Origin: a virus
Length of the DNA: 56,620 nucleotides
IMG/VR virus record: IMGVR_UViG_3300049450_000140
Location: 1 to 56,620 of that record
Reading direction: 5' to 3' (one strand)
The notes under the pieces: model-generated
Database searches by the model: none
What the model was told of the DNA's origin: nothing
The model's input: only the letters and a program-made list of their open reading frames with translations
Made by a program: the position numbers and the translations under genes
In this document: piece by piece, positions 2,944-28,489 of the stretch
Position numbering within the stretch: position 1 is the stretch's first letter
How the letters are laid out: every line of letters starts with the position of its first letter

Positions 2944-3115
2944 GGCCCCGAACGTACTCCGCGTGCACGAGGCGGTGCAAGGAGAATCGCAAGGTTCCCG
3001 CAGGTCTGTTGGGGTCGTGGTTGTCGACGCCAGGCGTGTGCTCATGACCAGGCAATCAGTATTACTGTCTGTAAAAGTCTTTAACAAGAAGTTGAGCAGG
3101 GTACGCTTTGCGGTC

Positions 3116-6660: not shown

Positions 6661-6834
6661 TCATCCTGCCGTGAGTGCCGCGCCGATGGCAGCCACGACG
6701 CAGAGCACGGCCAGCAGGCCGCCGAGGAGGTTCACCGCGTCGCGGAGCGCCTGCGTCCACATCCCGCGCGCCAGGACGAGCATCACCGCGCTGGCCGCGC
6801 CGGAGATGACCGCCAGGGTAATGTCCTGCGTCAC
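6661..6834 (-). CDS. Small membrane protein (57 aa)
   Basis: GTG at 6834 overlaps the stop of the upstream gene (GTGA). The protein begins MTQDITLAVISGAASAVMLV and carries two hydrophobic stretches, the second LLGGLLAVLCVVAAIGAAL, so it should sit in the membrane with two helices. It is the last gene of the left arm of the minus-strand array and converges on the coiled-coil gene. Function unknown; holin-like topology is only a guess. Confidence 0.55.
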   Translation of the reverse strand: MTQDITLAVISGAASAVMLVLARGMWTQALRDAVNLLGGLLAVLCVVAAIGAALTAG

Positions 6835-7025
6835 TGCGCCATCAGCTCCGCCAGCTCACGGGTGACGAGGCGGCGCTCCCGGGCGCGCTGCCCGCGCCGG
6901 CGCAGGCGGCTTCCGCCAGTCCCGCGCCAGGCGTCGTAGTGCCGGTGACCGCAACGGCTCCGGCCGCAGTCGCCGGGACGCTCGTCGTGATTGCGACTGT
7001 GCGCCGCCGCCAGCATCCGGGTCAT
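6831..7025 (-). CDS. Small basic protein, degenerate member of the LTLxEMM array
   Basis: A 64-residue, Arg-rich protein (MTRMLAAAHSRNHDERPGDC). Its start at 7025 lies five bases before the stop of the array gene upstream. The C-terminus, RERRLVTRELAELMAQ, is a weakened version of the RARALTLAEMMAQ ending of the neighbour. It is His/Cys-containing but has no clear metal site. It may be a decaying copy or a divergent member of the family. Confidence 0.5.
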   Translation of the reverse strand: MTRMLAAAHSRNHDERPGDCGRSRCGHRHYDAWRGTGGSRLRRRGQRARERRLVTRELAELMAQ

Positions 7026-7027
7026 CG

Positions 7028-7354
7028 TCACTGCGCCATCATCTCCGCCAGCGTTAGCGCGCGGGCCCGCAGCAGCGGCAGGAGGACGCTCACCGGATCG
7101 CGCCCGCCCAGGATCGCCAGGTACTCCTCCCGGGTCACGCCGACCCTGTCCAGGATGAGCACATGGGCCGGCCACTCCTGGTGGTATCCCGCGAGCGTCC
7201 ACGTGCGCTCCGCGCCCCCCGCGGTGATGATGGCATGCGCCTGCTCCCGGGTGACGGCCAGCCCGTCCAGCCAGGTCCGGTTCACGAAACGGCTGCCGGG
7301 CGGGCTCTTCTCGATGTGCAGCGTCCAGCCGTCGCGCGCCCGCGTCACGGTCAT
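7028..7354 (-). CDS. LTLxEMM-array protein (108 aa)
   Basis: A clear member of the array family. It starts MTVTRARDGWTLHIEK, which contains the family motif RDGWTL. Two internal motifs follow, LAVTREQAHAI and VGVTREEYLAILGGRDP, and the tail is LRARALTLAEMMAQ. The three elements look like successive copies of phi-x-V-T-x-x-E-A-x-A-I, the last ending the protein. Function unknown. Start and stop are coupled to the neighbours; the LTLAEMM codons include a GGAGATGATGG stretch that can serve as the ribosome-binding site of the next gene. Confidence 0.75.
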   Translation of the reverse strand: MTVTRARDGWTLHIEKSPPGSRFVNRTWLDGLAVTREQAHAIITAGGAERTWTLAGYHQEWPAHVLILDRVGVTREEYLAILGGRDPVSVLLPLLRARALTLAEMMAQ

Positions 7355-7674
7355 CTCGCCATCATCTCCAGCAGGACCGCGCCCCCGGCCATGACGGCGC
7401 GGCTGGCTTCCGGGTCGGCCAGCGCCCAGCGGGCGTGCTCGCGCATGCTGTACGCGGGGTCAGGGACGCGCCAGCCCGCGATGCGCTCCCAGAGCGCGGC
7501 CGTGGGGATGACGGCGACCCGGCCGCACATCCGGCAGCGCGGCCCTAGCCCGTCGCGCCAGCCCAGGAGCATCGCCCCGGTGCACCCGGCCGCGCGCAGC
7601 AGTCGCTGCGCGTACTCCTCCGGCACCGGGTAGCTTCCTGACGGCCGCGGGCCCGGGAGCAGCAGGCGGTTCAC
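7351..7674 (-). CDS. CxxC protein within the array, partial tail motif
   Basis: GTG at 7674 overlaps the upstream stop (GTGA). The 107-residue product has RCRMCGRVAVIP (possible half of a zinc site) and ends AGGAVLLEMMAR, which keeps only the EMM part of the array tail. Residues 60-90 (WERIAGWRVPDPAYSMREHA) look globular. No family recognised; its position between two true array members suggests a related role. Confidence 0.6.
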   Translation of the reverse strand: MNRLLLPGPRPSGSYPVPEEYAQRLLRAAGCTGAMLLGWRDGLGPRCRMCGRVAVIPTAALWERIAGWRVPDPAYSMREHARWALADPEASRAVMAGGAVLLEMMAR

Positions 7675-8000
7675 CGGCTCATCATCTCCGCCAGCGTCAG
7701 CGCCCGGGCCCGCAGCGGCGGCCACAGCACGTGCCGCGGGTCGCGTCCGCCCCGGATCAGCTGCGCCTCTTCCCAGCTCACCTCGATGCCGCCGTCCACG
7801 CCTATCGCCGGCCAGCCGCCCGGTGCCTGGAACACCCGCAGCGCGGCCCGCTCGCCGGGCGTCACGTTTGCGACCGGCCCGCGCAGCGCGAACCGGACGT
7901 ACTTGTCACGGCCGCGCAGCGGCTCCACGGTCAGCGTCCAGCCGTCCCCGGCGACGGGCAGCCCCCAGCCGTCCCGGGCCAGCCCGTGGCGATTACTCAC
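7671..8000 (-). CDS. LTLxEMM-array protein (109 aa)
   Basis: Array-family protein with GTG start at 8000 coupled to the upstream stop. The N-terminus holds two DGW elements, RDGWGLP and GDGWTLTVEP. The middle has VANVTPGERAALRVF and IEVSWEEAQLIRGGRDP, which match the T/S-x-x-E-A unit of the family. It ends LRARALTLAEMMSR. The middle diverges strongly from its neighbour while the ends are kept, as in the other copies. Confidence 0.72.
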   Translation of the reverse strand: MSNRHGLARDGWGLPVAGDGWTLTVEPLRGRDKYVRFALRGPVANVTPGERAALRVFQAPGGWPAIGVDGGIEVSWEEAQLIRGGRDPRHVLWPPLRARALTLAEMMSR

Positions 8001-8677
8001 CAGGCCGTGCCGCCTGACCCGGCGTGCCGGACGGCGTCACGGACGGCCATGGCCCAGGACCCGTAGTCGCCGCCGCGGCAGTTCCGGTTCCGGCCCTGGT
8101 CCCAGTGCGGGCAGGCCCAGCGCCACAGCCGCACGCCGTCATAGCGCAGGCCGGTGCTGCGCACGCGTGCCTTGTGCCTGGCTGGCGCGGCCGTCTCGTC
8201 ATCAGCTCCTTCCGGGTCAGCGGCCGGCCAGCGGCCCGGCTGAGCGGGCAGCACGTACGTCACCGGGTCAGCGGCCGGCCAGCGGCCCGCCGCGAGCAGC
8301 GCCGCCCGGTGGAAGGCCCCGTTGCGGGCGCACGCCCAGCACGACGGCCGCGGGAACGGCATCGGGTGCTCCGCGCAGTCTGCTCGCTGCGCGAGGACGA
8401 CCCGGGTGATCTCCTCGCGCAGCTCCTGCTCGCTCATGACGTCAGGATCAGCGTCGCCGGCCGTGACGTCCTTAGCGACGTCAGCGGCGATGACCTCGAA
8501 CTCCCCGCCATTTAGCAGGTCGGTCATCTCCCGGCCCCAGCCCTTGCCCCGGTAACTGGACAGCGCGGTCGCCGCGTCCGCCAGCGTCCCGCCGTATACG
8601 GTGACCGTGACCAGCAGCGTGCCCGTCACCTCATCCGGTGCCTTCTCGTCATTGCGGTTGCTGCCCTGGTAGCTCAC
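7997..8677 (-). CDS. Hypothetical protein with Cys pairs and an internal 9-residue duplication
   Basis: GTG start at 8677 overlaps the upstream stop. The N-terminal half (TGTLLVTVTVYGGTLADAAT) looks like an alpha/beta domain. Cys pairs appear at RPSCWACARNG and in the C-terminal segment ACPHWDQGRNRNCRGG. GRWPAADP occurs twice, 18 residues apart, from a near-perfect DNA repeat at about 8213-8239 and 8264-8290. No family recognised. It is the second gene of the left minus-strand unit. Confidence 0.6.
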   Translation of the reverse strand: MSYQGSNRNDEKAPDEVTGTLLVTVTVYGGTLADAATALSSYRGKGWGREMTDLLNGGEFEVIAADVAKDVTAGDADPDVMSEQELREEITRVVLAQRADCAEHPMPFPRPSCWACARNGAFHRAALLAAGRWPAADPVTYVLPAQPGRWPAADPEGADDETAAPARHKARVRSTGLRYDGVRLWRWACPHWDQGRNRNCRGGDYGSWAMAVRDAVRHAGSGGTAW

Positions 8678-8886
8678 GGCTCGCGCTCCCATCCCCCTGT
8701 CCCCTGCACTCGCTCAGGCCCCCGGTAGATCACGCGGCCCTTGCTGGTGCAGACCTCCGGCTCGCAGTGGTCGCACGGGCTAGCCGGGGAGCAGGTTTGC
8801 TCACAGTCGTGGCAGTACAGGGAGGACCAGCCGTTGCCTGCATACGGATCGATGCCCCCGTGACCCTTCATGCCCTTAGTGCTCAT
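8674..8886 (-). CDS. Small zinc-ribbon-like protein
   Basis: Seventy residues, beginning MSTKGMKGHGGIDPYAGNG, with a dense metal-binding segment CHDCEQTCSPASPCDHC and a further Cys eleven residues on. It is the first gene of a minus-strand unit whose candidate promoter lies at 8903-8916, divergent from the 8959 gene. No strong ribosome-binding site precedes the ATG. Function unknown; a small nucleic-acid or protein-binding zinc module is likely. Confidence 0.6.
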   Translation of the reverse strand: MSTKGMKGHGGIDPYAGNGWSSLYCHDCEQTCSPASPCDHCEPEVCTSKGRVIYRGPERVQGTGGWEREP

Positions 8887-8902
8887 GTAGTCCAGGATAG
8901 CA

Positions 8903-8916
8903 GTCTTAGAGTATCG
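8903..8916. promoter_or_regulatory. Recurrent ATACTCTNNNAGAC promoter-like element (divergent)
   Basis: Read on the minus strand it is CGATACTCTAAGAC, one of about ten near-copies in gene-start regions of this window. GATACT fits a -10 box for the 8886 gene; read on the plus strand, GAGTATCGT could serve the 8959 gene. It lies between divergent genes. No convincing -35 box is visible. Confidence 0.45.
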
Positions 8917-8958
8917 TGGGGTATCAGTCAGTCCATGTAAAGAAGAAAGGGAAGCCTG

Positions 8959-9651
8959 ATGCCCCCAGCGAAGGCCACCACCACGGGCGCGATCTCGCTC
9001 CAGCGGCTCGGCCGCTCCATGATCCGGGTGCCCGTCCAGGGCCTCACCCCGCTCATCACCAACAAGTTCAGCGCCAAGGCCCAGCAGATCATGCTCGACC
9101 GGCAGATGGGCAAGCCCGTCGAGCGCCAGCCGAAGGACCCGGAGCAGAACTTCCGCGACGCCCAGCACCTGCTCCCCGGCGGCGCCCCCGCGTTCCCCTC
9201 GGTCGGCTTCAAGGCCGCCATCGTGGACGCGGCCCGGTTCTTCAAGGGCTCCAAGCTGCCCATGACGGACCTGCGCCGGATGATCTTCGTCAACGGCGAG
9301 CCGGGCACCGACCAGGCGAACCGCACGCTGCTGGTCCCCGTCTGGGGGGAGTGGACCGGCGAGGAGTCGGCGCTCGTCCCGGCCACCGCGGTGATGCGCC
9401 AGGACTACGCGCGCAACGAGACCGGCGTCGCCGACATCCGCTTCCGGCCGGAGTACTGGCCGTGGTCGGCGGTGCTGGAGGTGGTCTGGGTGCGCAACTC
9501 GCTGACGCTGGAGTCCGTCATCGCGCTGGTGGACGCCGCCGGCTTCGCGGGCATCGGCGAGTGGCGCCCGGCCAGCAAGGAATCCAATACTGGCTCCTAC
9601 GGCACGTTCCGGGTGCCGGACGACGCCGAGGTCAAGGAGATAGTCCTGTGA
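8959..9651 (+). CDS. Conserved phage protein, recombination-associated (GEWRP family)
   Basis: A 230-residue protein with a good ribosome-binding site (AAGAAAGGGAAG) before the ATG. I recognise the layout from memory as a phage family of unknown function often found near recombination genes: LITNKFSAKAQQIMLDRQ, then FPSVGFKAAIVDAARF, then a C-terminal GIGEWRPASK followed by GTFRV. The next gene overlaps its stop (GTGA). The function is not established; the context suggests a role in DNA metabolism. Confidence 0.72.
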   Translation: MPPAKATTTGAISLQRLGRSMIRVPVQGLTPLITNKFSAKAQQIMLDRQMGKPVERQPKDPEQNFRDAQHLLPGGAPAFPSVGFKAAIVDAARFFKGSKLPMTDLRRMIFVNGEPGTDQANRTLLVPVWGEWTGEESALVPATAVMRQDYARNETGVADIRFRPEYWPWSAVLEVVWVRNSLTLESVIALVDAAGFAGIGEWRPASKESNTGSYGTFRVPDDAEVKEIVL

Positions 9652-10115
9652 GGGATGAGGTACTGAAGGCCCTGAAGGGGCTGGAGGACTCCCGCGGCAA
9701 GCTGCACGCCGATGAGGTCGTGGCGGCAGCACGGCCGGAGGACAGCGCGCTGCACGGGCTGTTCACCTGGGATGACGCCATCGCCGCGGCGCAGCGCCGC
9801 CTGGAGGAGGCCCGCGGCCTGATCCGCAGCTACCGGGTGGCCGTCGTCCGCGAGGTCGCGTCCGGCGGCCAGCGCGCGGTCATGATGCGCAAGTACGTGG
9901 CCGACCGGATGATCGGCATCCCCTCGCCGCCCGGCACGTACTCCAGCGTCACCTCGCTCACGACGCAGGAGCAGGGCCTGATCCTGCTGCGCATCCGCCG
10001 CGAGGTCCGCTCCATGGCCCAGCGGTACCGCGACTACCCCGAGTTCTGGCAGGAGCTTGCCGAGGTCATCGCCGAGCACGAGGCGCAGGTGAAGAAGGCA
10101 GCAGCATCCGGCTGA
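9648..10115 (+). CDS. Hypothetical helical protein coupled to the GEWRP protein
   Basis: GTG at 9648 overlaps the preceding stop by four bases. The 155-residue product is mainly helical and charged (WDDAIAAAQRRLEEARGLIR, then LLRIRREVRSMAQRYRDY). Its last codons (KKAAASG, stop) and the following AAAGGGATGGAC form the sequence that is repeated five more times in the pentameric region downstream. A ribosome-binding site and ATG right after the stop suggest a gene once followed here. Confidence 0.65.
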   Translation: MRDEVLKALKGLEDSRGKLHADEVVAAARPEDSALHGLFTWDDAIAAAQRRLEEARGLIRSYRVAVVREVASGGQRAVMMRKYVADRMIGIPSPPGTYSSVTSLTTQEQGLILLRIRREVRSMAQRYRDYPEFWQELAEVIAEHEAQVKKAAASG

Positions 10116-11720
10116 AAGGGATGGACATGGCAAGGCGGGGTCCGGCGAGGCTTGGTGCGGCAGGCGAGGCACGGCATGGTGCGGCGTGGCGTGGTCCGGT
10201 CCGGCAGGCACGGCATGGTGCGGCTCGGCATGGTCCGGCCCGGCGGGGTCCGGCCCGGCAGGCAAGGCGCGGCGTGGCAAGGCTTGGCTAGGCGGGGCAG
10301 GCACGGGAGCAGCAGCATCCGGCGCAAAGGGATGGACTTGGCAAGGCGGGGCAGGCACGGTGTGGCGCGGCAAGGCGCGGTGCGTCATGGCCCGGCAGGC
10401 ATGGCGTGGCGTGGCTAGGCGCGGCTCGGCACGGCCTGGCAGGCATGGCTCGGTTCGGCGGGGTGGGGCGTGGCTTGGCAGGCAGGGCATGGCGCGGAGC
10501 GGAACGACATGGCTCGGCAGGTCTGGCCGGCACGGGAGCAGCAGCATCCGGCGTAAAGGGATGGACGTGGCATGGTGCGGTGCGGCAGGGCCAGGCGCGG
10601 CAGGCGAGGCACGGCACGGCAGGGCGCGGCGCGGCAGGGCAGGTAGGGCTTGGCACGGGGTGGCGTGGCATGGCAGGCAGGGACCGGTAAGGCTCGGTGC
10701 GTCATGGCGCGGTCAGGCAGGTCAGGCTCGGTGAGGCTAGGCCGGGACCGGCAGGGACGGGAGCAGCAGCATCCGGCGTAAAGGGATGGACGCGGCAGGG
10801 CAGGGTCCGGCGAGGCCAGGCGGGGCAGGCATGGCGAGGCTGGCCAAGGAGAGGCATGGCGCGATGTGGCGAGGCCGGGCAGGCACGGCAAGGCACGGCG
10901 AGGCAAGGTCTGGCAAGGCAGGCATGGCTCGGGCTGGCATGGCCAGGCGGGGCTAGGCGGGGACCGGCAGGCAGGGCGTGGCTTGGCACGGGGTGGCGCG
11001 CGTCGGCGCGGCAGGCATGGCGTGGCCTGGCTGGGTCAGGCGCGGCGCGGCAGGGCAGGCGAGGTCAGGGCCGGCACGGCTAGGCACGGCTGGGATCGGC
11101 TCGGCAGCCGCGGTGAGGTTAGCCATGGCCAGGTGCGGCGCGGCAGGCACGGGAGCAGCAGCATCCGGCGCAAAGGGATGGACACGGCTAGGCACGGCAG
11201 GGCATGGCGAGGTCTGGCGCGGCAGGTGAGGTTAGGCGCGGCAAGGTCTGGCATGGCGGGGCAGGTGAGGTTAGGCGCGGCGAGGTCTGGCGTGGCCGGG
11301 CAGGCACGGGAGCAGCAGCATCCGGCGTAAAAGGGATGGACACGGCGGGGCAAGGCGGGGTGACGCAAGGCCAGGACTGGCAGGCATGGCATGGCTAGGC
11401 TCGGCAGGGCTCGGCTAGGCAGGCATGGCTAGGCTCGGCAGGCCCCGGCGCGGCACGGCAGGGCAGGCGCGGCATGGCTTGGCTAGGTGAGGCGAGGTCC
11501 GGCAGGCATGGCTAGGCAGGGCAAGGTCTGGCGTGGCAGGCATGGCTAGGCGTGGTGCGGCTGGGCTAGGCTCGGCTGGGCAGGCAGGGCTTGGCGTGGC
11601 GCGGCTGGGCAAGGCTCGGCAGGCGTCGCAAGGCTAGGCAGGGCTGGGCGCGGCCCGCCCCGGCAGGAATGGCTCGGCTAGGACGGGCCTGGCTAGGCAG
11701 GCACGGGAGCCCGGCGCCGT
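10116..11720 (+). repeat. 1.6-kb pentameric (GGCNN)n region with embedded gene-end/RBS repeats
   Basis: The plus strand consists of GG dinucleotides every five bases, roughly GGCNN with free last positions, for about 1.6 kb. Long reading frames are open here on both strands because the pattern rarely makes a stop; none looks like a protein. Embedded in it are copies of a 29-bp sequence, GCAGCAGCATCCGG plus YRNAAAGGGATGGAC, at 10309, 10538, 10763, 11155 and 11312. They match the end of the preceding gene and its downstream ribosome-binding site at 10098. Spacings are 211, 229, 225, 392 and 157 bases. GG spaced by three bases could form two-layer G-quadruplexes. Function unknown. Confidence 0.85.
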
Positions 11721-11761
11721 TTCACTCGGTGCCGGGCCCTGTTACCGGTATCTTGGGGTCT

Positions 11762-13003
11762 ATGACTGACCTGACGGAGACCCTGTCCGCGGACCAGCGC
11801 CGCGCGCTCACGCAGATCCTGGCGTGGCATGAGGCCGGGGGCTGGCCGCCGCTGACCCTGGGCGGGCTGGCGGGAACCGGGAAGACTAGCCTGATCTGCT
11901 GCCTGCCGCAGTTCCTGCCTGATATCCGGATCGCGTTCGCCGCCTACACCGGTAAGGCGACGTCCGTGCTGCGGCGCAAGCTCCCCGGTGACGTCCCCCC
12001 GGATCATGCGTCCACCCTGCACCGGCTGCTCTACCGTGCCTGTGAGGTTACGGTGTGCACCGAGAGTGACACGGTAATGAAGGAGGCGGACGTTCAGTGC
12101 CGCGCGCACGCCGGACGGGGCTGGGAGTGCGCGGTGCGCCGCCAGCTGAGCTTCACGCCGGCGCCGGAGCCGCTCGCCGGCATCGGACTGGTCGTGGCCG
12201 ACGAGGCATCGATGATCCCCGAGCAGCTCTGGAAGGACCTGACCGGCCATGGCGTTCCGGTGCTGGCGGTCGGCGACCACGGCCAGCTGCCGCCCGTCCG
12301 CTCGTCCTTCAACTTGATGGCCAGCCCGGATATCCGGCTGGAGAAGATCCACCGGCAGAACGAGGAAAGCCCGTCTGGCATGGCCATCCTCACCATGGCG
12401 CGGTGGGCGCGCGAGCAGGGCCACGTGCCGCCCGGCTGGTACGGGCCGGATGCGGTCAAGCTGACGATGGCCGAGCATGAGTCCGGGCTGGCCGGCCTGC
12501 ACCCGGCTGAGGCGGACCTGATCATCTGCGCGACTAACGCCGCAAGGACAGCGCACAACCAGCTGATGCGCGCGTGGCACGGCCGGTCCGGGCCGCCGCA
12601 GGTCGGCGATACGGTGACCTGCCTTCGCAATAACCACGCAGAGGGCCTGTACAACGGTCAGCGCGGGACCATCCTGGCCGTGGGAGGGGTAACAGGGCCC
12701 GGTAGTGAGGCCACATTCCAGGCTGTCATCGAATGCGAGGACCTCCTCCGCCCGTGGTCGGGGACGGTATCAGCGCTGCCGTTCGGTGACCCGAAGTTCC
12801 AGGCATCCTGCGTCAGGGACCGTCATGTCGCGCTCTTTGACTATGGCTACGCACTCACAGCCCACAAGGCACAGGGAAGTTCGGCCGAGAAGGTGCTGGT
12901 CATTGAGGAGGGCTGGCCGGCGCCCGGAACTGGCGAGCGCAGCCGGTGGCTGTACACCGCGGTGACGAGGGCGGAGCGGTCACTGACTATCGCCGGATGG
13001 TAA
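11762..13003 (+). CDS. RecD/Pif1-like SF1 DNA helicase
   Basis: ATP-dependent 5'-3' DNA helicase type, 413 residues from ATG 11762. Motifs in order: Walker A GLAGTGKTS (35-43), a threonine-rich AAYTGKATSVL, Walker B VVADEASM (about 140), GDHGQLPPV (motif III) and RLEKIHRQ (motif IV). The C-terminal UvrD_C_2-like part has ALTAHKAQGSSAEKVLV and LYTAVTRAERSL. A possible -10 TATCTT lies seven bases before the ATG, so the message may be leaderless. It follows the pentameric region directly and likely acts in phage replication or recombination. Confidence 0.85.
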   Translation: MTDLTETLSADQRRALTQILAWHEAGGWPPLTLGGLAGTGKTSLICCLPQFLPDIRIAFAAYTGKATSVLRRKLPGDVPPDHASTLHRLLYRACEVTVCTESDTVMKEADVQCRAHAGRGWECAVRRQLSFTPAPEPLAGIGLVVADEASMIPEQLWKDLTGHGVPVLAVGDHGQLPPVRSSFNLMASPDIRLEKIHRQNEESPSGMAILTMARWAREQGHVPPGWYGPDAVKLTMAEHESGLAGLHPAEADLIICATNAARTAHNQLMRAWHGRSGPPQVGDTVTCLRNNHAEGLYNGQRGTILAVGGVTGPGSEATFQAVIECEDLLRPWSGTVSALPFGDPKFQASCVRDRHVALFDYGYALTAHKAQGSSAEKVLVIEEGWPAPGTGERSRWLYTAVTRAERSLTIAGW

Positions 13004-13008
13004 AGGTA

Positions 13009-13025
13009 GTCTCTTAGAGTATGAT
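13009..13025. promoter_or_regulatory. Recurrent ATACTCTNNNAGAC promoter-like element
   Basis: GTCTCTTAGAGTATGAT lies right after the helicase stop and before the ParB-like gene. On the plus strand TATGAT is a good -10 box about 35 bases before the TTG start; on the minus strand it is the ATACTCTAAGAGAC form seen elsewhere. Confidence 0.45.
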
Positions 13026-13059
13026 GTGAGTGAGAAGCTACCCCTTGAAAGGGATTCCG

Positions 13060-13854
13060 TTGGCAAAGAAGGTCATCTACCCCGAGGCTCCGCCGCAGAA
13101 CTACGAGGACACCATGCTGCCGGTCGGCATACTGGTGTCCGCGTTCGCCACCTTGCGCGGGCCGCAGCGCAACCGCCCCGAGGACAGCGTCAGGTACCTG
13201 TCAACGCTCAGGGCGAGGGCCAAGGCGTTCCAGGACTACAATCCTGTGCTACTGCGCCCGCGCGTCGTGTCCTACCGTTCTGACAGCCACCAGTACTGGA
13301 CGCTGGACGGCAACGCCTCCAACCACTGGCTGCACGAGAAGTTCGGCCCGAACCACCTGGTCCCGTGCCGGGTGCTCCGCGGCCTGACGCTGGCCCAGGA
13401 GAACCGCATCTTCCAGGACCTTCAGCGGCTGAAGAAGGTGACGCTGACCGAGGCGGCCCGCAGTGACATCGAGTTCGATGACGGCAGCCTCGCGTTCACC
13501 GTCAACCGCATGTTCGAGGAGCAGGGCTTCACGATAGGCCAGCGGACCGACAGCGCCACCACGATCGGCATCAGCGCGGGTACCTACGTGCTGGCCATCG
13601 GCGGCGAGCCCCGGCTACGGGAGACGCTGCGCGCCCTGCGCGAGTGCTTCCCCGGTGACGACAAGCGGCGCACGAACGTGACGCTGGTCAAGGCGGTGGG
13701 CCTGGCCCTGGGCAACGCCGAGCTGGAGCACGAGCGCCTGATGCGGGCGATGAAGGCGGCCGGCACCTGGGAGCTGGCCGGCGCCGCGCAGGGCCGCGGC
13801 TCCGAGCACGCCGTGCTGGCGAAGATCCGGGCAGCGTATGACAAGGCGGAGTAG
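13060..13854 (+). CDS. ParB-like (DUF6551-type) protein
   Basis: A 264-residue protein with a ParB/sulfiredoxin-like N-terminal half: VVSYRSDSHQYWTLDGNASN, then VPCRVLRGLTLAQENRIFQDL. This is the layout of phage ParB-nuclease-like proteins, in which a pocket holds DGxxR; here it reads DGNASN, so the catalytic Arg/His is absent. TTG at 13060 is chosen as start because GAAAGGG lies six bases upstream; GTG at 13030 is in frame. The C-terminal half is helical and may bind DNA. It may act in recombination or replication control. Confidence 0.68.
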   Translation: MAKKVIYPEAPPQNYEDTMLPVGILVSAFATLRGPQRNRPEDSVRYLSTLRARAKAFQDYNPVLLRPRVVSYRSDSHQYWTLDGNASNHWLHEKFGPNHLVPCRVLRGLTLAQENRIFQDLQRLKKVTLTEAARSDIEFDDGSLAFTVNRMFEEQGFTIGQRTDSATTIGISAGTYVLAIGGEPRLRETLRALRECFPGDDKRRTNVTLVKAVGLALGNAELEHERLMRAMKAAGTWELAGAAQGRGSEHAVLAKIRAAYDKAE

Positions 13855-13876
13855 CCCGCGCGCATGGCAGGGTCAG

Positions 13877-14101
13877 TCAGCACCGGTAACCGTCGTCCCA
13901 TTCCTCCCAGAAATGCCGGGCGCACACGTCCGTCCCCGGCCGCGCCATCGAGTGGAACCGCACCGGCTCACGGCACCCCTTCACCGAGCAAGTGCCCGCC
14001 CAGCACGCGGCCAGGAAGAGAAGCGCCGATACGCACACGGCGATGAGTACCCAGCCCCACCCGGTCACCTGCTGGCCGGGCCGGGCTGATGGCAGGGACA
14101 C
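13877..14101 (-). CDS. Small membrane protein with cytoplasmic or external Cys segment
   Basis: Seventy-four residues with one strong transmembrane helix (WVLIAVCVSALLFLAACWAG), followed by CSVKGC and a His/Trp-rich tail ending DVCARHFWEEWDDGYRC. Four Cys and His suggest a metal site or disulfides. GTG start at 14101. Its 5' end overlaps the 5' end of the divergent 14089 gene by 13 bases, an unusual arrangement. Confidence 0.6.
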   Translation of the reverse strand: MSLPSARPGQQVTGWGWVLIAVCVSALLFLAACWAGTCSVKGCREPVRFHSMARPGTDVCARHFWEEWDDGYRC

Positions 14102-14265
14102 TGGGCCGGTGCCACGGCTTCACGGGCCGGCCCGGCGATCCCTCTTGCTACCACCCCGGCCCCGGGATACTGCCCGTGTGGGCATCCGACCTGGCTGCCT
14201 GGGTCATCGTGGTCCTGATCATCGGCGTACTCGCTCTCGTCGTCCGGAAGATCGCCAGGTACTAG
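14089..14265 (+). CDS. Small single-pass membrane protein (58 aa)
   Basis: ATG at 14089 (MAGTLGRCHGFTGRPGDPSC) leads into one transmembrane helix, WASDLAAWVIVVLIIGVLAL, ending VVRKIARY, with positive charge after the helix. Its TAG stop shares the palindrome CTAG with the TAG stop of the opposing array gene at 14262, so the two genes end on the same four bases. Function unknown. Confidence 0.5.
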   Translation: MAGTLGRCHGFTGRPGDPSCYHPGPGILPVWASDLAAWVIVVLIIGVLALVVRKIARY

Positions 14266-14435
14266 CCCAGCATCTCGGCCAGGGTCAGTGGCCGGGCTGC
14301 CAGCGGCAGCGGCCCCCCGGTCGTTGCCCGCCATCGCGTGAAAGCGGCCTCATGCAGGCAGCGGGCCTTGGCTGCGGTGATGATCCCGGCCAGGTACAGC
14401 CTCGCCAGGAGCTGCACGTAGTCCCCGTGGCTCAC
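14262..14435 (-). CDS. Short LTLxEMM-array protein (57 aa)
   Basis: Last gene of the main array. It lacks the RDGWTL start and one internal unit, keeping AAKARCLHEAAFTRW and the tail AARPLTLAEMLG. GTG start at 14435 overlaps the upstream stop. It begins MSHGDYVQLLARLYLAGI. A half-length copy like this supports the idea that the family is built from repeat units gained and lost one at a time. Confidence 0.65.
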   Translation of the reverse strand: MSHGDYVQLLARLYLAGIITAAKARCLHEAAFTRWRATTGGPLPLAARPLTLAEMLG

Positions 14436-14806
14436 GTGCCCAGCATCTCCTGAAGGCTCAGCGGCCGGGCGCGCAGCACCAGCGGCCACAGCCACTGCCG
14501 CGCCCCGTCCGGGCCGCGCAGCAGCACGTCCAGCGGGCTGGCCCCGCCCGCGATGGCGAGCATCTCCTCCGCGGTGACGTCGATGAACTCGAACAGGTAA
14601 GCCTCCGGGTACCGCATGACGCCGTCGTCCCGGGTCCGCATCACCCCGCTGCCGCCCCGCGCTAGCCGGACCGCCCTGGCCTGCTCGCCGCCGGTAACCT
14701 CCAGGGCCAGCTGCCACCGCCGCGGCCCGCCCGGGTAGTCCCGGACCTGGGTCAGCGTCCACGGCTGCGGCCGGGGGGCATCGTAGGTAATTCCTGGTGG
14801 CCGCAT
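14432..14806 (-). CDS. LTLxEMM-array protein (124 aa)
   Basis: Array member beginning MRPPGITYDAPRPQPWTLTQ (PWTL takes the place of GWTL). Internal units are LEVTGGEQARAVRLARGG and IDVTAEEMLAIAGGASPLDV; the tail is LRARPLSLQEMLGT. Unlike most neighbours its start is 31 bases from the upstream stop, with GGAAAGCGAG in between as a possible ribosome-binding site. Confidence 0.72.
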   Translation of the reverse strand: MRPPGITYDAPRPQPWTLTQVRDYPGGPRRWQLALEVTGGEQARAVRLARGGSGVMRTRDDGVMRYPEAYLFEFIDVTAEEMLAIAGGASPLDVLLRGPDGARQWLWPLVLRARPLSLQEMLGT

Positions 14807-14837
14807 GGCGTGCGCACTCGCTTTCCGTTGTCCTGCG

Positions 14838-15089
14838 TCACGTGCCTAGCATCTCCTGAAGGCTCAGCGGCCGGGCGCGCAGCACGATCGTGCCGGGCGG
14901 CAGGGACGCCCTGTCCTGCCGGGCCCGCACCTCATTCAGGGTCATCACGCCGGCCTGGCGCTGGAGCTGCCAGACCGACGCCCGCAGTGCCGCGACCTGG
15001 CGGTCCCCGGCTTCTTGCCGGGCGGCCTGGTCACGGTGGACGGACACCAGGAAGCCCGTCAGGTCCCGCCAGGAGTAGCCCTCGCTCAT
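14838..15089 (-). CDS. LTLxEMM-tailed helical protein (83 aa)
   Basis: The tail VLRARPLSLQEMLGT matches the next array gene, but the body differs: residues 15-55 are a charged helix (VHRDQAARQEAGDRQVAALR). It contains MTLNEVRARQDRA, similar to a phage portal-associated motif but too short to assign. The shared tail on an unrelated body argues that the tail is a portable module. ATG start overlaps the upstream stop. Confidence 0.68.
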   Translation of the reverse strand: MSEGYSWRDLTGFLVSVHRDQAARQEAGDRQVAALRASVWQLQRQAGVMTLNEVRARQDRASLPPGTIVLRARPLSLQEMLGT

Positions 15090-15499
15090 GCGCCCATCAT
15101 CTCCTGAAGGCTCAGCGGCCGTGCCCTGATCCGCGGCGCCAGCGCGGCCACCGGGTCGGTGCCGTCTACGATGGCCGCCGCCTCGTCCATGGTCAGCTCA
15201 ATGTCGTCCATCACCAGGACCGGGCCAGGGCCGTAGCCGTAGTGCACGCTGGCCCGCGGCGGCGCGAAGTGCCCCAGGCGACGGCCGGTGATGGCATCCG
15301 CCTCGCGGGGCGTCACCGTCAGGCCGGACAGCACGTACCGCACGTCGGTGGTCACGCGCGGGATGAGGTACTCGGAGTAACAGGTCAGCGGCGCCTCGTA
15401 CTGCCAGGTCTCCAGCGTCCAGTTATCGCGCCGGGCCATCCCGTTCCGGCTGCCGTGGAAGGTGCGGGCCAGTCGCCAGCCCGGCCAGTCCCAGCTCAT
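15086..15499 (-). CDS. LTLxEMM-array protein (137 aa)
   Basis: Full-type member: RRDNWTLETWQYEAP near the start, internal units LTVTPREADAITGRR and IELTMDEAAAIVDGTDPVAA, tail IRARPLSLQEMMGA. The N-terminus is longer than usual (MSWDWPGWRLARTFHGSRNG). Start is ATG 15499, overlapping the upstream stop by four bases. Function unknown. Confidence 0.73.
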   Translation of the reverse strand: MSWDWPGWRLARTFHGSRNGMARRDNWTLETWQYEAPLTCYSEYLIPRVTTDVRYVLSGLTVTPREADAITGRRLGHFAPPRASVHYGYGPGPVLVMDDIELTMDEAAAIVDGTDPVAALAPRIRARPLSLQEMMGA

Positions 15500-15942
15500 T
15501 CCCTCATCATCTCCTCCAGGGTCAGCGCGCGGGCGCGCAGCGGCGGGGCCAGCATGGCCAGCGGGTCGGCCCCGCGCCAGACGCGCACCGTCTCCTCCGT
15601 GGTCAGCACCATCTTCATCGGCCGCAGCGGGCCGTTGCCGTGGCCCAGGTGCCAGGGCAGGTCCCCCGGCCGGTGCCGCATGACCTGGCTCGCCTGCCCG
15701 GCCGTCACCATCAGGTTCTCCAGCACGTACAGCGGGCGCGTATCGCCGAAGTGACCGTACGGGGCGGTGCCGGCCCGCAGCGTCCAGCCGTCCCGCTCGG
15801 CGAGCGTCACCCCGGTCAGTGCTGCCGGCAGGACGTCGAAGTCAATGGACCAGTCCGGGATATAAGCCACGGGCTGGCCGAGCAGCGCGCCCGGCCCCGT
15901 GCCGAGGTACATGATCCCGTTCCTGCCGGTGACGCGGGTCAC
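15496..15942 (-). CDS. Array protein with tail-tube-like N-terminus fused to an LTLxEMM module (148 aa)
   Basis: The first 40 residues (MTRVTGRNGIMYLGTGPGAL and on through PVAYIPDWSIDFDV) align with the start of the 56139 tail-tube-like protein (MSRIHGRNGIAYIGVNPADL, PMAFLSDWSINFVV), about 19 identities in 40. After this comes a normal array body: LAERDGWTLRAG, LMVTAGQASQVMRHR, VLTTEETVRVWRGADPLAML, tail LRARALTLEEMMRE. It is therefore a fusion of a virion-type segment with the unknown module. GTG start at 15942 is coupled (GTGA). Confidence 0.75.
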   Translation of the reverse strand: MTRVTGRNGIMYLGTGPGALLGQPVAYIPDWSIDFDVLPAALTGVTLAERDGWTLRAGTAPYGHFGDTRPLYVLENLMVTAGQASQVMRHRPGDLPWHLGHGNGPLRPMKMVLTTEETVRVWRGADPLAMLAPPLRARALTLEEMMRE

Positions 15943-16268
15943 GTGCCCGTCATCTCCGCCAGGGTCAGCGACCGCGCGTACAGCGGCGGCATCAGCACGT
16001 TCAGCGGGTGCCTGCCGCCCGCGATGGCGTGAGCCTCGGCCGGCGTGACCTCCAGGTGCAGGAGGAAGAAGCTGCCGAACGGGTACTCGTGCTCAACGGT
16101 GAGCACGGCCCGGCCCGTGGTGATGGCGCGGGCCTGGCTCCTCGTCACCCGCAGCCCGGACAGCGTGCAGCGAACCGGGGAGGACACGGTCCCGTACGGG
16201 AAGGCGCCCTCCCACGCCGCGTCCAGCGTCCAGCCGTCCCGGGCGGCGAGCATCTCGCTGCACGTCAT
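15939..16268 (-). CDS. LTLxEMM-array protein (109 aa)
   Basis: A textbook member of the family: LAARDGWTLDAAWEG near residue 10, LRVTRSQARAITTGR at about 40, LEVTPAEAHAIAGGRHPLNV at about 72, and tail YARSLTLAEMTGT. The ATG at 16268 overlaps the upstream stop. The middle segments between the units (for example EHEYPFGSFFLLH) are the variable part between paralogs. Confidence 0.75.
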   Translation of the reverse strand: MTCSEMLAARDGWTLDAAWEGAFPYGTVSSPVRCTLSGLRVTRSQARAITTGRAVLTVEHEYPFGSFFLLHLEVTPAEAHAIAGGRHPLNVLMPPLYARSLTLAEMTGT

Positions 16269-16648
16269 GCGCCCGTCATCTCCGCCAGGGTCAGCGACCG
16301 CGCGTACAGCGGCGGCAGCAGCACCGCCATCGGGTGCTCCCCGGACAGCATGCGGTCCGCCTCCTGCGGCGTGACCTGAATCCGGGACAGGGACAAGACG
16401 GGGGTGACGTTCGCGCCGTACTGGTGCATGAAGGTTCTGGTAATCCAGCTGCCTGCACCCCGACGCCATGGCCGCGGTCGCGCCGACATCAGCCGCTCGG
16501 CGTCTCCGGGCGTCACCGGGAGGTCATGCAGCGTGAAGAGTACCTCCCGGTGCCCTGGCGACATGACGCCCATCGAGTGCTCCCAGTGCTCCTGCGCGGT
16601 CAGCACCGCGCCGCACCGCAGCCGTCGTTTCATGACTATCCTGCTCAT
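16265..16648 (-). CDS. LTLxEMM-array protein (127 aa)
   Basis: Begins MSRIVMKRRLRCGAVLTAQE, so the RDGWTL element is missing. Internal units are LPVTPGDAERLMSAR and IQVTPQEADRMLSGEHPMAV; the tail YARSLTLAEMTGA is nearly identical to the neighbour. It is coupled at both ends. The basic N-terminus distinguishes it from the other copies. Confidence 0.72.
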   Translation of the reverse strand: MSRIVMKRRLRCGAVLTAQEHWEHSMGVMSPGHREVLFTLHDLPVTPGDAERLMSARPRPWRRGAGSWITRTFMHQYGANVTPVLSLSRIQVTPQEADRMLSGEHPMAVLLPPLYARSLTLAEMTGA

Positions 16649-16965
16649 GCGCCCATCATCTCCCTCAGGGTCAGTGACCGGGCCCGGAAGCGAGGGGTCA
16701 GCACGGTTACCGGATTTGCCCCGTCCTGGATTGCGCGGGCTTGCTCCCAGGTGAGGCTGACGCCGTGCATGATCAGGCACTCAGGGCTTACCCACCACAT
16801 GTGCGATGACCGGGCGGTCATGGCCTGGAGCTGCGCGTCCGTTACCGTCAGCCCGTCCAGCTGGTACACGTGCCGGAGCTGGTACACGTGCCGGAGCAGG
16901 CTGCCGCTCCGGGGCCAGCGCCACGCGCTCAGCGTCCAGCCGTCTCGCTGCGCCAGCACGCTCAT
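16645..16965 (-). CDS. LTLxEMM-array protein with internal 6-residue duplication (106 aa)
   Basis: Starts MSVLAQRDGWTLSAW, the same start as the next gene. Internal units: LTVTDAQLQAMTARS and VSLTWEQARAIQDGANPVTV; tail FRARSLTLREMMGA. RHVYQL occurs twice in a row, from an 18-bp tandem duplication (about 16858-16896) that keeps frame, which looks recent. Coupled ATG start at 16965. Confidence 0.75.
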   Translation of the reverse strand: MSVLAQRDGWTLSAWRWPRSGSLLRHVYQLRHVYQLDGLTVTDAQLQAMTARSSHMWWVSPECLIMHGVSLTWEQARAIQDGANPVTVLTPRFRARSLTLREMMGA

Positions 16966-17273
16966 GCGCTCATCATCTCCCTCAGGGTCAGTGACCGGGC
17001 GTGCAGCGGGGGAGCCAGCACCGTCAGCGGGTCGCGTCCCAGCAGCCCGATCGCGTGCGCCTCCGCCCGGTCCAGCTCCAGCGTCATGACCCATCCGCCG
17101 GGGACGGGGACCCGGAACCAGGACCCGGTCCGGCCGCAGCGGTACAAGATGGCGGCGCACTGCTCCTGCGTCACGGCCAGCTCGCGCAGGATGAACGCAG
17201 CACAGGGGAAGTCAGGAGGGGAAGGCGGGCCTGTCTCCAGCGTCCAGCCGTCTCGCTGCGCCAGCACGCTCAT
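16962..17273 (-). CDS. LTLxEMM-array protein (103 aa)
   Basis: Starts MSVLAQRDGWTLETG, sharing twelve residues with the downstream paralog before diverging. Internal units: LAVTQEQCAAILYRC and LELDRAEAHAIGLLGRDPLTV; tail LHARSLTLREMMSA. The shared ends with different middles suggest duplication followed by fast change of the core. Confidence 0.75.
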   Translation of the reverse strand: MSVLAQRDGWTLETGPPSPPDFPCAAFILRELAVTQEQCAAILYRCGRTGSWFRVPVPGGWVMTLELDRAEAHAIGLLGRDPLTVLAPPLHARSLTLREMMSA

Positions 17274-17632
17274 GCACCCATCATCTCCGCCAGGGTCAGC
17301 GGCCGGGCCCAGGTCCGGGGCAGCAGCACCGTCAGCGGGTGAGCGCCGCGCCGGATGGCCATCGCCTCAGCCTCGCTGAGCAAGATCCCGCTGACCATCG
17401 CGAGCCCGGCCGTCATCGCAAGCCCGGCTGCCATGGCGGTCAGCCAGTACGGAGCGTCGTCCCGGACGGCGGCGGCCCGCTCGTACTGCGCCTGCGTCAT
17501 GACCACGTCGTCCAGCGTCCAGGTGACGCAGTGCAGCCGGGAAGCACTCTCCCAGGACGGCCACCAGCGGTCTTCCTCGTACGTCAGCGCCCAGCCGCCC
17601 CGGAACCCTATCCGGCCCCGGTGCCTGCTCAC
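17270..17632 (-). CDS. LTLxEMM-array protein with hydrophobic insertion (120 aa)
   Basis: The N-terminal GGWALTYEEDRWW replaces RDGWTL. Units are VVMTQAQYERAAAVR and ILLSEAEAMAIRRGAHPLTV; tail TWARPLTLAEMMGA. A hydrophobic segment AMAAGLAMTAGLAMVSG lies between the units and could insert into a membrane; it contains a short repeat (GLAMxxGLAM). GTG start 17632 is coupled. Confidence 0.72.
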   Translation of the reverse strand: MSRHRGRIGFRGGWALTYEEDRWWPSWESASRLHCVTWTLDDVVMTQAQYERAAAVRDDAPYWLTAMAAGLAMTAGLAMVSGILLSEAEAMAIRRGAHPLTVLLPRTWARPLTLAEMMGA

Positions 17633-17865
17633 GTGCCCGTCCGCTCGCGCCAGCCCGGCTCGTCATCCTCGTCGTCATCATCATCCTCGCCCGGGGAGGA
17701 CGGCTCAAGGATGATCACCGCGACGCTGGCGGGCAGCCCGATGAGCGCGGGCAGGAACGCGATCTCCAGCACTGATCCCCTGGCGACCGCCTGGGCTGCC
17801 AGGATCACGGCCGCGAGTGCCGCCGCCACGCCGGCCAGGCCCGCCACTAGCCGCCAGGCGCTCAC
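17629..17865 (-). CDS. Two-helix membrane protein with acidic tail (78 aa)
   Basis: Two hydrophobic helices (VAGLAGVAAALAAVILAAQA and IAFLPALIGLPASVAVIIL) are followed by a run of acids, EDDDDDEDDE, and GWRERTGT. The end resembles that of the next gene upstream (DWHERTGT), but there is no LTLxEMM tail. Coupled GTG start. It could anchor something at the membrane or be a small holin-like protein; neither is shown. Confidence 0.6.
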   Translation of the reverse strand: MSAWRLVAGLAGVAAALAAVILAAQAVARGSVLEIAFLPALIGLPASVAVIILEPSSPGEDDDDDEDDEPGWRERTGT

Positions 17866-18053
17866 GTGCCCGTCCGCTCGTGCCAGTCCGCGTGCTGCGC
17901 CCGGTTGTCGACGGGCGGTGGCTGCTCGCCGGCCACGGCGACGCTTCCCTCTGCGGAGGCGGACAGCCGGAGGTAGGTGATGGCGCCGCAGCGCGGGCAG
18001 GAATTCGAGGTCAGCACCATCCGGAAGCTGCTCTCCCCGTCAGCCGGCATCAT
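17862..18053 (-). CDS. Small zinc-knuckle protein (63 aa)
   Basis: Has one CPRCGAITYLRLS motif and a disordered remainder ending DWHERTGT. Only one CxxC pair is present, so zinc would need a partner chain or His residues (H54, H58). ATG start at 18053 overlaps the stop of the RuvC-like gene (ATGA), so the two are probably made together. Confidence 0.6.
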   Translation of the reverse strand: MMPADGESSFRMVLTSNSCPRCGAITYLRLSASAEGSVAVAGEQPPPVDNRAQHADWHERTGT

Positions 18054-18631
18054 GAGAAGCCCTCCAGTTCTTCCAGCGACAGTGACCGGGCATAGAGCGT
18101 GCCCGCCTTGCGCGAGAGCGGATCGGGCATGCCACAGTCGTGGATCATGGCAAACAAAGCATGCCTGCACGCGTCGGCAGCGTGCGGCATGCCGTGGCAC
18201 TGCTCCAGCAGCCCTGCCGCCTTCAGCCGGGCGTCGGTTGCCCAGGGTTTCACTTCTGCTGCGCTGCGCCAGTGCCACCTGGCGAGCCGGTCCAGGTCGC
18301 TGATCACCTGCCGGGTGGCGGTAGCGTTCGCGCCCCTGGCCCCGGCGCCGCGCCCGGTGATGAACCGCTCGCCGGCGCAGATGATCCGGGCCGGCCCCTC
18401 GCTGGCCTCCAGCAGCCAGCTCGCCAGCGGGTACGCGCCCGCGGCATTGCACTGGAAGACCAGGGGACGCTGCCCCGGCCCGGAGCACAGCCACGCGATG
18501 CCCGTGACAGGGCCGGGGTCGACGCCGAGCACGCAGGTTACCGCCGGCTGCGGGCCCTGGGTTAGCCGGCGCAGCAGGTCCTGCTGTGCCGCGGTCAGGG
18601 CAGGCCCGGCCCGCGGCGCTTCCTCAGTCAC
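18050..18631 (-). CDS. RuvC-fold Holliday-junction resolvase-like nuclease with LTLxEMM-type tail
   Basis: 193 residues. The RNase H/RuvC fold is visible from VLGVDPGPVTGIAWL (Asp38), ICAGERFITG (Glu88) and HAADACRHALF (Asp153, His157), a full acidic catalytic set. It should cut branched DNA during phage recombination or packaging. The C-terminus, GTLYARSLSLEELEGFS, closely matches the YARSLTLAEMTG tail of the array proteins encoded downstream in the same transcript, outside the nuclease fold. Start GTG 18631 overlaps the stop of a 7-codon mini-ORF. Confidence 0.8.
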   Translation of the reverse strand: MTEEAPRAGPALTAAQQDLLRRLTQGPQPAVTCVLGVDPGPVTGIAWLCSGPGQRPLVFQCNAAGAYPLASWLLEASEGPARIICAGERFITGRGAGARGANATATRQVISDLDRLARWHWRSAAEVKPWATDARLKAAGLLEQCHGMPHAADACRHALFAMIHDCGMPDPLSRKAGTLYARSLSLEELEGFS

Positions 18632-25341: not shown

Positions 25342-25904
25342 CGTTCCACCTCATCGCCGCGCGCAGGGCCTAGCCCGAACACGTGCCCGATGCCCAGGCG
25401 CAGCGCCAGCTCGTAGTTGCGGGCAGGCTTCCCCGGGTCCGCGTCCGACTCCAGCGAGAGGCCGTCCCGCTGGCATGCCGCCTCAAGGATCTCCCGCGCC
25501 AGCGCCTCGGCGGCGTCCGGTTCCGGACCAGTTCCCGTCCCCAGGTCGGCGAGCGCCTGCTTCCAGCTAGTGAACCTGACGGCCCTGTCATCGAGGTAAG
25601 CGGAGGCGCCCAGCTTCCGGTTAGTGACGAGCAGCACGCCCCGGGTTTCCCAGAACACGCCGTCCCAGTCGCGGTCATGCCGGAAGGCCGAGTCATCGGT
25701 GCTGACCTTGAACCCGTGGTCATGAAGCCAGCCTGCGACCTGCGCGGTGTTCCGGGACGTGAAGATGAAGACCGCGTGCCTGCTCATCAGCTGCCGTAGC
25801 CCGTCCAGCGCCCCGTCGAACGGCAAGTCGTAGATGGACCCGTCCTGCCAGCCGCGTGAGTACCGGTGAATAACTCCGTCAAAGTCAATCGCTACCGTGG
25901 TCAC
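25338..25904 (-). CDS. HAD-superfamily phosphatase
   Basis: 188 residues. Motif I is VAIDFDGVIHRYSRGW (nucleophile Asp), motif II VFIFTSRN, and the C-terminal motif region is LDDRAVRFTSW. The small cap region suggests a nucleotidase or polynucleotide 3'-phosphatase-like enzyme. GTG at 25904 (VTTVAIDFDGV) is chosen because it overlaps the upstream stop. Likely in phage nucleotide metabolism or end repair; the substrate is not known. Confidence 0.75.
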   Translation of the reverse strand: MTTVAIDFDGVIHRYSRGWQDGSIYDLPFDGALDGLRQLMSRHAVFIFTSRNTAQVAGWLHDHGFKVSTDDSAFRHDRDWDGVFWETRGVLLVTNRKLGASAYLDDRAVRFTSWKQALADLGTGTGPEPDAAEALAREILEAACQRDGLSLESDADPGKPARNYELALRLGIGHVFGLGPARGDEVER

Positions 25905-26251
25905 CGGCTCATCAGCTCCCGCAGCGTCAGCGGCCGGGCGTGCAGGTACGGCCCCTTGCTGAGGCTGGCCGGGTCCCGCGTCAGCTTCGGCTCCCCGAAC
26001 TTCATGCCTTCCAGGACCGGGATGCCGGTCAGCAGCCATTCCGGGCTCTTGCGCTGTTCCTGGTACATGCGGTAGCTCATGTTCATTACTTCTGCGTTCA
26101 GGCACGGGTGCAGCCAGCGCGGGTGCATTACCCACCACAGGTGACAGGCCCAGGGCCCGCGGCGAGGGGCGTCCAGGAGCCGGAACCGGTAGTACTCATC
26201 GACCAGGTACGCCCACAGGTCCTGGTAGCTCACCTGCGACGGGTCATTCAT
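25901..26251 (-). CDS. LTLxEMM-tailed protein outside the array (116 aa)
   Basis: The tail HARPLTLRELMSR matches the array family. The body is different and is shared with the 28151 protein: LWWVMHPRWLHPCLNAEV aligns with LYWVMSHECRNVIMQL, and GIPVLEGMKFGEPKLTRDP with GYPVIAGPAYGPPLLTDDP. The two therefore form a second subfamily carrying the tag. ATG at 26251 lies just inside the 3' end of the upstream gene. Confidence 0.7.
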   Translation of the reverse strand: MNDPSQVSYQDLWAYLVDEYYRFRLLDAPRRGPWACHLWWVMHPRWLHPCLNAEVMNMSYRMYQEQRKSPEWLLTGIPVLEGMKFGEPKLTRDPASLSKGPYLHARPLTLRELMSR

Positions 26252-28150: not shown

Positions 28151-28489
28151 CTAGCCCGGCTCACTAGCCAGTTCCGCTAGCGTCAGGTTCCGCGCGATCA
28201 GCTGCACGCGTTGCGCCGCTGCCAGCGGGTCGTCAGTCAGCAGCGGCGGGCCGTAGGCAGGCCCGGCGATGACCGGGTAGCCGAACAGCATGTCCCGCAG
28301 GCCCTCGGTGCGCGACAGCTCCAGGGCCGGCCATCCCTGCGGTGAGCACAGTTGCATGATGACATTGCGACACTCATGGCTCATCACCCAGTACAGGCTC
28401 CGGTGGTCATTGCGCCAGTCGCTGCGGCGCTCGTACGCCTGCCCGACCAGTTCCCGGTACAGGTCCGCGCCGCTCACGCCGCTCATCAC
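28151..28489 (-). CDS. LTLxEMM-tailed protein, second subfamily (112 aa)
   Basis: Paralog of the 25901 gene with the same order of elements: LYWVMSHECRNVIMQL, a GYPVIAGPAYGPPLLTDDP segment, and tail LIARNLTLAELASEPG. The tag is followed by five extra residues, and its ELA replaces EMM. GTG start 28489 is coupled to the HAD gene upstream. Confidence 0.68.
   Translation of the reverse strand: MMSGVSGADLYRELVGQAYERRSDWRNDHRSLYWVMSHECRNVIMQLCSPQGWPALELSRTEGLRDMLFGYPVIAGPAYGPPLLTDDPLAAAQRVQLIARNLTLAELASEPG

Follow-up and report, generated by a model that had tools for sequence, protein, structure and literature searches.

Introduction

In the available sections of PMC3012670 and PMC5694885, the capsid-targeting sequence of phage T4 is described as a short terminal peptide that is the sole common feature of highly diverse small phage proteins. 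Encapsulin cargo-loading peptides, according to the accessible part of PMC7355545, are about 10 residues long and mostly C-terminal, are carried by different cargo proteins and are bound inside an HK97-fold shell. The subject of this report is a peptide at the C-terminus of proteins encoded by the IMG/VR virus record IMGVR_UViG_3300049450_000140, whose 56,620 bases were analyzed as a whole and are called the window. This peptide, termed the ARxLTL tag, is common to at least 17 different small proteins of one large soil phage, and a different shared peptide is present in a related phage.

Sequence records

The same virus is represented by a record of 158,651 bases (G001), to which the window is near-identical in reversed orientation (100%, 100%, 99.99% and 99.97% over the four pieces compared). 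An assembly artefact is rejected because two additional samples yielded records with 100% identity over 20,360 and 17,101 bases, the 17,101 window bases being matched in a record of 88,635 bases. Sequence scans covered IMG/VR and one genome collection. Genes outside the window were called with a simple codon model made for this analysis. The portal, head protease and major capsid protein genes of G001 are consecutive, a tape measure and a major tail protein gene are also present, and these full-length virion genes are without the tag. A search of IMG/VR with the capsid protein gave 258 related stretches, and the best 80 of 258 loci were kept; several of these sit in contigs of 107-210 kb.

Related phage records are G003, G004, G005 and G007-G010. 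The capsid protein of G005 (184,980 bases) is 86.6% identical to that of G001 and the proteases are 76% identical; G004 is from the same sample as G005 and overlaps with it. The G+C contents of G001 and G005 are 0.688 and 0.592, about 10 points apart despite 87% identical capsids, and the hosts may differ. G003 is the nearest relative with a long contig, yet a fragment; because it has no syntenic matches past about 89.6 kb of G001, the array of tagged genes is probably absent from it.

The C-terminal tag

Genes of the window are named by their first coordinate (Table 1). An earlier note on this DNA had listed 15 tails, on twelve array genes and on 18050, 25901 and 28151, and all of them were found in place. 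Two more tagged proteins are encoded in G001 outside the window (L037:100-396 and L038:11434-11763), which brings the total to at least 17. The motif [AV]RxL[TS]Lx[EQ][ML] has 17 matches in the six-frame translation of G001, each no more than 6 residues from a stop and all on one strand, and none in seven related phage records (G004 and G005 overlapping). A chance alignment of the tails is rejected on these counts. Clustering of C-termini gave a single cluster of 18 rows, which represent 17 proteins (25901 twice, as overlapping pieces), whereas the largest cluster elsewhere in the proteins had 3 members for mid-protein segments and 5 for N-termini. The commonest C-terminal 4-residue pattern occurs in 18 genes, 2 of them unrelated matches, as compared with at most 6 in mid-protein or N-terminal windows.

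The tag is about 10 residues long. The last two to four codons after it form a stop/start junction that looks much the same in 17629 and 17862, which have no tag, and is best excluded from the tag. These two adjacent genes (17629-18053, minus strand) have the common ending ERTGT and last bases like those of the tagged gene 15939; the resemblance is probably the stop/start junction.

Mean pairwise codon identity within the tag is 0.667 over 8 columns, compared with 0.491 expected from codon usage; the corresponding values for the tag of G005 are 0.345 and 0.286 over 6 columns, close to saturation. Some neighboring copies look like recent duplicates in the codon comparison. Synonymous sites vary while the residues stay, and the tag is therefore, as judged from its codons, conserved as protein. 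The next called gene on the same strand lies 5,376 bases beyond the tag of 14262, and 247 and 299 bases beyond the two tags outside the window; these three have no coupled gene and are therefore not ribosome-binding sites of one. Codon variation and uncoupled tags together largely reject an artefact of ribosome binding or recombination, and the tails align at the protein level and non-randomly rather than by chance or as DNA only.

The DNA pattern for ARxLTL was found in 16 IMG/VR stretches, 5 of which are this virus. In the 11 others the motif never comes as close as 6 residues to a stop; the nearest miss is 7 residues away in a 21-codon frame. The peptide pattern matched 10 stretches of the genome collection, none confirmed as a relative, with the frames unread. 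Among 46 loci around homologs of the RuvC-like gene 18050, a clear multi-gene tag was seen in three (this virus twice, and G005); clusters of three in L307 and L312 look like low-complexity or wrong-frame ends. By eye there was no tag cluster in G007-G010, the cluster of nine in G009 and that of four in G010 being rich in Pro, Ala and Gly. Homologs of 18050 in five relatives (G005, G007-G010) have no such tag. The RuvC-like label of this gene comes from the earlier note and from weak matches to annotated RuvC-like resolvases; phrog_1981 is itself of unknown function. Net charge per 100 amino acids is +1.2 and +0.6 for tagged proteins versus -2.2 and -3.3 for untagged small genes, a weak difference. 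Literature searches aimed at such a tag or at decoys returned no matching description, with subscription papers outside their scope, which makes this weak evidence of absence.

The repeat family

With the tag removed, ten of the twelve array genes belong to one repeat family (hidden Markov model (HMM) E 5e-34 to 9e-20); since these ten proteins themselves supplied the HMM, the scores show coherence, not independent discovery. Genes 14262, 14838, 6831 and 7351 and the other tagged proteins fall outside it (E > 0.4), and the paralogous array of twelve that had been proposed thus stands for ten genes and fails for 14262 and 14838. Because seven tagged proteins are outside the repeat family, the tail is, on these comparisons, a tag and not a family feature. 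RDGWTL, which was said to lie near the start of most members, is exact in five of the ten (7028, 15496, 15939, 16645, 16962) and degenerate or barely recognizable in the others. Genes 6831 and 7351 had been taken for decayed members, which is not borne out by their scores (E 5.2 and 3.1); the resemblance of 6831 to 7028 is confined to the last 24 bases (23/24 alike, counted by eye) and may be a shared stop/ribosome-binding junction. The description of the genes as a fast-evolving, translationally coupled set of small proteins is supported.

The earlier impression that no described family has this pattern is supported: Pfam and PHROGs gave no accepted match for nine of the ten window repeat proteins (all but 16645), NCBIfam none for 15 repeat-family members (best E 0.014), and PDB sequences no match to E 1. 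The AlphaFold2 model of 15939 (predicted local distance difference test (pLDDT) 85.8, predicted template modelling score 0.72) shows a hairpin at the N-terminus plus two units made up of strands and a helix, and the tag is a short helix in a block with a mean pLDDT of 87. Fold searches with the repeat module gave no clear match (Foldseek best E 0.26 for PDB and 0.11 for BFVD; VIA-align Z ≤ 4.9); they returned mostly kinase lobes with Z below 5, which are not believed. One of 15 repeat proteins, G005 L145:13776-14117 (minus strand), weakly matches the PADLOC model of Septu PtuB1 (E 2.7e-4, 18.7 bits; residues 39-87 against model residues 135-182 of 206). The match was found neither in its close paralog L145:13432 nor in the nine window repeat proteins scanned.

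A different tag in phage G005

G005 encodes four homologous repeat proteins (HMM E 4e-14 to 6e-4) and a weak fifth, L146:10765 (E 0.012). Their C-terminal sequence is LxxVPW(R/Q)P or close to it, aligned about where the ARxLTL tag stands. This VPW tag is carried by 17 G005 proteins in four places; the carriers include repeat proteins, short proteins rich in cysteine, and further types. One more possible carrier, encoded on the opposite strand, would be the eighteenth and is uncertain. The pattern Lx[VAI][VI]PW has 16 matches in G005, 15 of them at most 16 residues from a stop and the sixteenth 23 away. Elsewhere the count per record is 0 to 3; the three matches of G004, which holds part of the VPW-tagged set, are tags, and G003 has one of its three matches 4 residues away from a stop. 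Between 1 and 21 residues follow the VPW tag before the stop. In the model of a G005 repeat protein the tag is a coil outside the folded units (block mean pLDDT 68-75). A scan with the VPW pattern matched 78 stretches, among which 19 loci showed a looser form of it close to a stop; four of these are G005 or G004, and the other 15, with one or two matches each, were judged by eye not to have a shared tag.

The VPW-tagged array also contains a stand-alone ClpC1-type N-terminal domain (L145:14335-14766, minus strand; best PDB sequence match E 4e-64), whose frame is without the VPW tag. A second, partial ClpC1-type copy (L145:15557-15682) lies beside a gene on the other strand that, by eye, is HNH-endonuclease-like.

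Virion-protein-like pieces in tagged proteins

HMMs built from 80 relatives of the capsid protein and 68 of the portal were searched against a set of 279 proteins, comprising 34 tagged proteins with the tag removed and 245 untagged called genes of 40-200 residues from G001 and G005 (241 distinct). L037:100-396, the second called gene before the portal in G001, is a tagged stand-alone capsid delta domain that matches capsid residues 8-62 with E 1.6e-12. Gene 28151 matches the capsid protein at E 2.6e-7 and 14838 the portal at E 2.8e-4, over the residues in Table 1. Gene 25901 is a homolog of 28151 (E 2e-10 in a single comparison that included the tag); by itself it has no match to the capsid protein, and its capsid link is indirect, via 28151. 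Over its first 37 residues, 15496 resembles the N-terminal end of the major tail protein (E 6e-11 in a single comparison), and the G003 homolog of that protein is matched at phmmer E 3e-8. L038:11434-11763 is weakly similar to the tape measure (E 6e-5 in one comparison and 0.008 in the set of 279, where the best untagged protein has 0.12). Virion-like pieces are thus present in six of the 17 tagged G001 proteins: delta domain, capsid segment (two, one indirect), portal, tail tube and, weakly, tape measure. No untagged small gene among the 245 matches the capsid or portal model at E 0.1; the best capsid value is 0.17, and none reaches 1 with the portal. At the syntenic positions, the delta gene and the tape-measure-like gene are both missing from G003 and from G005. 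The virion-like pieces add fresh evidence that, in this single virus, the tagged set is linked to virion proteins.

Gene content of the window

The tagged genes and their neighbors are listed in Table 1. Two helicases are encoded in the region of tagged genes, a Dda-like one (11762-13003, plus strand, phrog_325) and one of SNF2 type (30009-31874, minus strand). Many degenerate internal repeats (self-matches of about 70-90% identity) occupy positions ~10100-11680 between the two blocks of tagged genes. An open frame at 2942-4399 (plus strand) matches the class II aminoacyl-tRNA synthetase core and anticodon-binding domains of Pfam.

Table 1. Tagged genes of the window, adjacent coupled genes and the related major tail protein gene
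Coordinates	Strand	Product	Tag	Remarks
7028..7354	-	repeat-family protein	ARALTLAEMMAQ	
7671..8000	-	repeat-family protein	ARALTLAEMMSR	
14262..14435	-	57-aa tagged protein	ARPLTLAEMLG	outside repeat family; no called coupled gene after it
14432..14806	-	repeat-family protein	ARPLSLQEMLGT	
14838..15089	-	tagged protein with portal-like segment	ARPLSLQEMLGT	residues 35-65 against portal HMM 351-381
15086..15499	-	repeat-family protein	ARPLSLQEMMGA	
15496..15942	-	major-tail-protein-like N-terminus, then repeat module	ARALTLEEMMRE	residues 1-37, 54% identity
15939..16268	-	repeat-family protein	ARSLTLAEMTGT	AlphaFold2 pLDDT 85.8
16265..16648	-	repeat-family protein	ARSLTLAEMTGA	
16645..16965	-	repeat-family protein	ARSLTLREMMGA	
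16962..17273	-	repeat-family protein	ARSLTLREMMSA	
17270..17632	-	repeat-family protein	ARPLTLAEMMGA	
17629..17865	-	coupled small membrane-like protein (by eye)		untagged; ends RERTGT
17862..18053	-	coupled small protein		untagged; ends HERTGT
18050..18631	-	RuvC-like protein	ARSLSLEEL	
25901..26251	-	tagged protein homologous to 28151	ARPLTLRELMSR	
28151..28489	-	tagged protein resembling major capsid protein	ARNLTLAEL	capsid residues 273-348
56139..56573	+	major tail protein		untagged; relative of 15496 N-terminus; phrog_10528, E 1e-4

Interpretation

The tag sits on several bodies that are unrelated by sequence, and we consider it somewhat probable that it serves as an address read by a common partner. 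One partner, phage-encoded or host-derived, would bind the tag and would thereby bring a changing set of bodies (repeat modules, virion-like pieces, the RuvC-like resolvase) to one place. For the whole statement, that a phage-private C-terminal address tag docks a fast-evolving protein set on one partner, we regard the chances as evenly balanced once alternatives beyond those listed here are allowed for. The best guess for the destination would be virion assembly and packaging (prohead core, portal), and the tag would then parallel the T4 capsid-targeting sequence at the C-terminal end; the bodies that resemble the delta domain, capsid, portal and tail proteins point in this direction, as perhaps does the resolvase. 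The prohead as destination is nevertheless a tentative proposal, on the doubtful side.

Several observations weigh against the address reading or its virion destination. The tags of G001 and G005 share nothing, though the capsid proteins are 87% and the proteases 76% identical; because the tags are unrelated while the capsids are so similar, the receptor is probably not the capsid shell itself. Fifteen of the 17 tagged genes sit away from the head genes. A search for a partner among genes exclusive to the two tagged phages gave nine rows, including one array gene, and none was convincing. The 17 tagged G005 proteins show no detectable virion similarity. The choice of virion proteins for the test on 279 proteins followed resemblances already noticed by eye. 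In a test with 182 families of these phages, partial matches to some longer family occurred in only two of the 34 tagged proteins (the delta protein and 28151) and in nine of the 245 untagged genes, and partial copies as such are thus no peculiarity of tagged genes; one of the nine families matched by the untagged genes has a member close to the G003 portal gene.

An alternative, which we hold to be rather unlikely, is that the bodies mimic the capsid, portal or tail tube as recognized by immune sensors or by the assembly lines of rival phages, and that the tag recruits a factor that disables or removes whatever the bait has bound. The classes of pieces match phage proteins reported to trigger bacterial immunity, which in the available part of PMC11087589 are the capsid protein (CapRel; with EF-Tu, Lit), the portal (Avs) and the tail tube (DSR2). 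The phage's own virion proteins are also not the closest relatives of the pieces, G001's capsid protein being placed 31 of 50 (delta protein) and 44 of 50 (28151) and its portal 18 of 29 (14838), ranks that carry little weight because the scores differ by only a few bits. The stand-alone ClpC1-type domain within the G005 tagged array and the weak PtuB1 match of one G005 repeat protein are consistent with the bait reading. Against it are the lack of detectable virion similarity in the G005 tagged proteins, the ClpC-like frame being without the tag, the shortness of three of the matches (31-55 residues), and the fact that no sensor or partner is known. In a modular form, judged unlikely, a private tag of each lineage would be read by a private partner and fused to swappable baits, including partial virion copies, that divert immune sensors or rival assembly. 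Virion assembly and decoy cannot be separated by sequence alone.

The tag could also be a degron that directs its carriers, by themselves or together with what they have bound, to a host protease such as ClpC1P, which would make them short-lived early proteins. A C-terminal position on unrelated proteins, a coil-like tag in the G005 model and the ClpC1-type N-domain gene in the G005 array would fit. A complete change of tag between related phages is unexpected for a conserved host protease, unless the hosts differ, and 1 to 21 residues follow the tag in G005; we find this quite improbable.

Very unlikely is the reading of the tag as only the last element of the repeat fold, spread by fusion and without a function of its own, although it forms a confidently modelled short helix in 15939 (block mean pLDDT 87) and ten of its 17 carriers are in the repeat family. 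It is kept by seven non-repeat proteins, the homologous repeat proteins of G005 have another tag in place of ARxLTL, and the synonymous variation among copies points to selection on the peptide. The earlier proposal that the tail is a third, truncated repeat unit can apply at best to the repeat proteins; it does not extend to the seven other carriers, and it is at odds with the G005 homologs, whose unrelated tag is modelled with middling confidence as a coil outside the folded units.

Hardly credible is a DNA-level translation-coupling element (Shine-Dalgarno sequence and start) read as peptide: GAG-ATG-ATG or a similar run does stand directly before the overlapping starts in many of these genes, and the untagged neighbors 17629 and 17862 have the same last bases as 15939, but this is largely refuted by three tags kept where no called gene is coupled, by the conserved ARxLTL upstream of the run, by extra codons between tag and stop in the coupled genes of G005, and by a codon choice for E that is as expected (0.78 vs 0.79).

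If the tag is an address, it would give a sequence-based means of gathering those anti-host or virion-cargo proteins of a phage that are missed by homology searches, and its partner and destination would be traceable. The two phages offer a natural case of a whole protein set whose shared end peptide differs between relatives.

Comparison with known systems

The nearest described logic, from the available sections on T4 cited above, is that of the capsid-targeting sequence, likewise a short peptide on otherwise unrelated proteins of one phage. The T4 tag is an N-terminal propeptide removed by the prohead protease, whereas the tag described here is C-terminal in 17 of 17 proteins and differs between relatives with 87% identical capsid proteins. 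The nearest C-terminal analogue, again within the accessible part of its source, is the encapsulin cargo-loading peptide, also a terminal peptide on unrelated proteins; here the tags are unrelated despite 87% identical capsids, and binding to a shell would be by analogy only. With the HK97-type capsid (delta domain), the portal and the major tail protein the likeness is one of sequence similarity to pieces of tagged proteins. In this virus partial segments of these virion proteins are fused to the tag, while the full virion genes are present and untagged.

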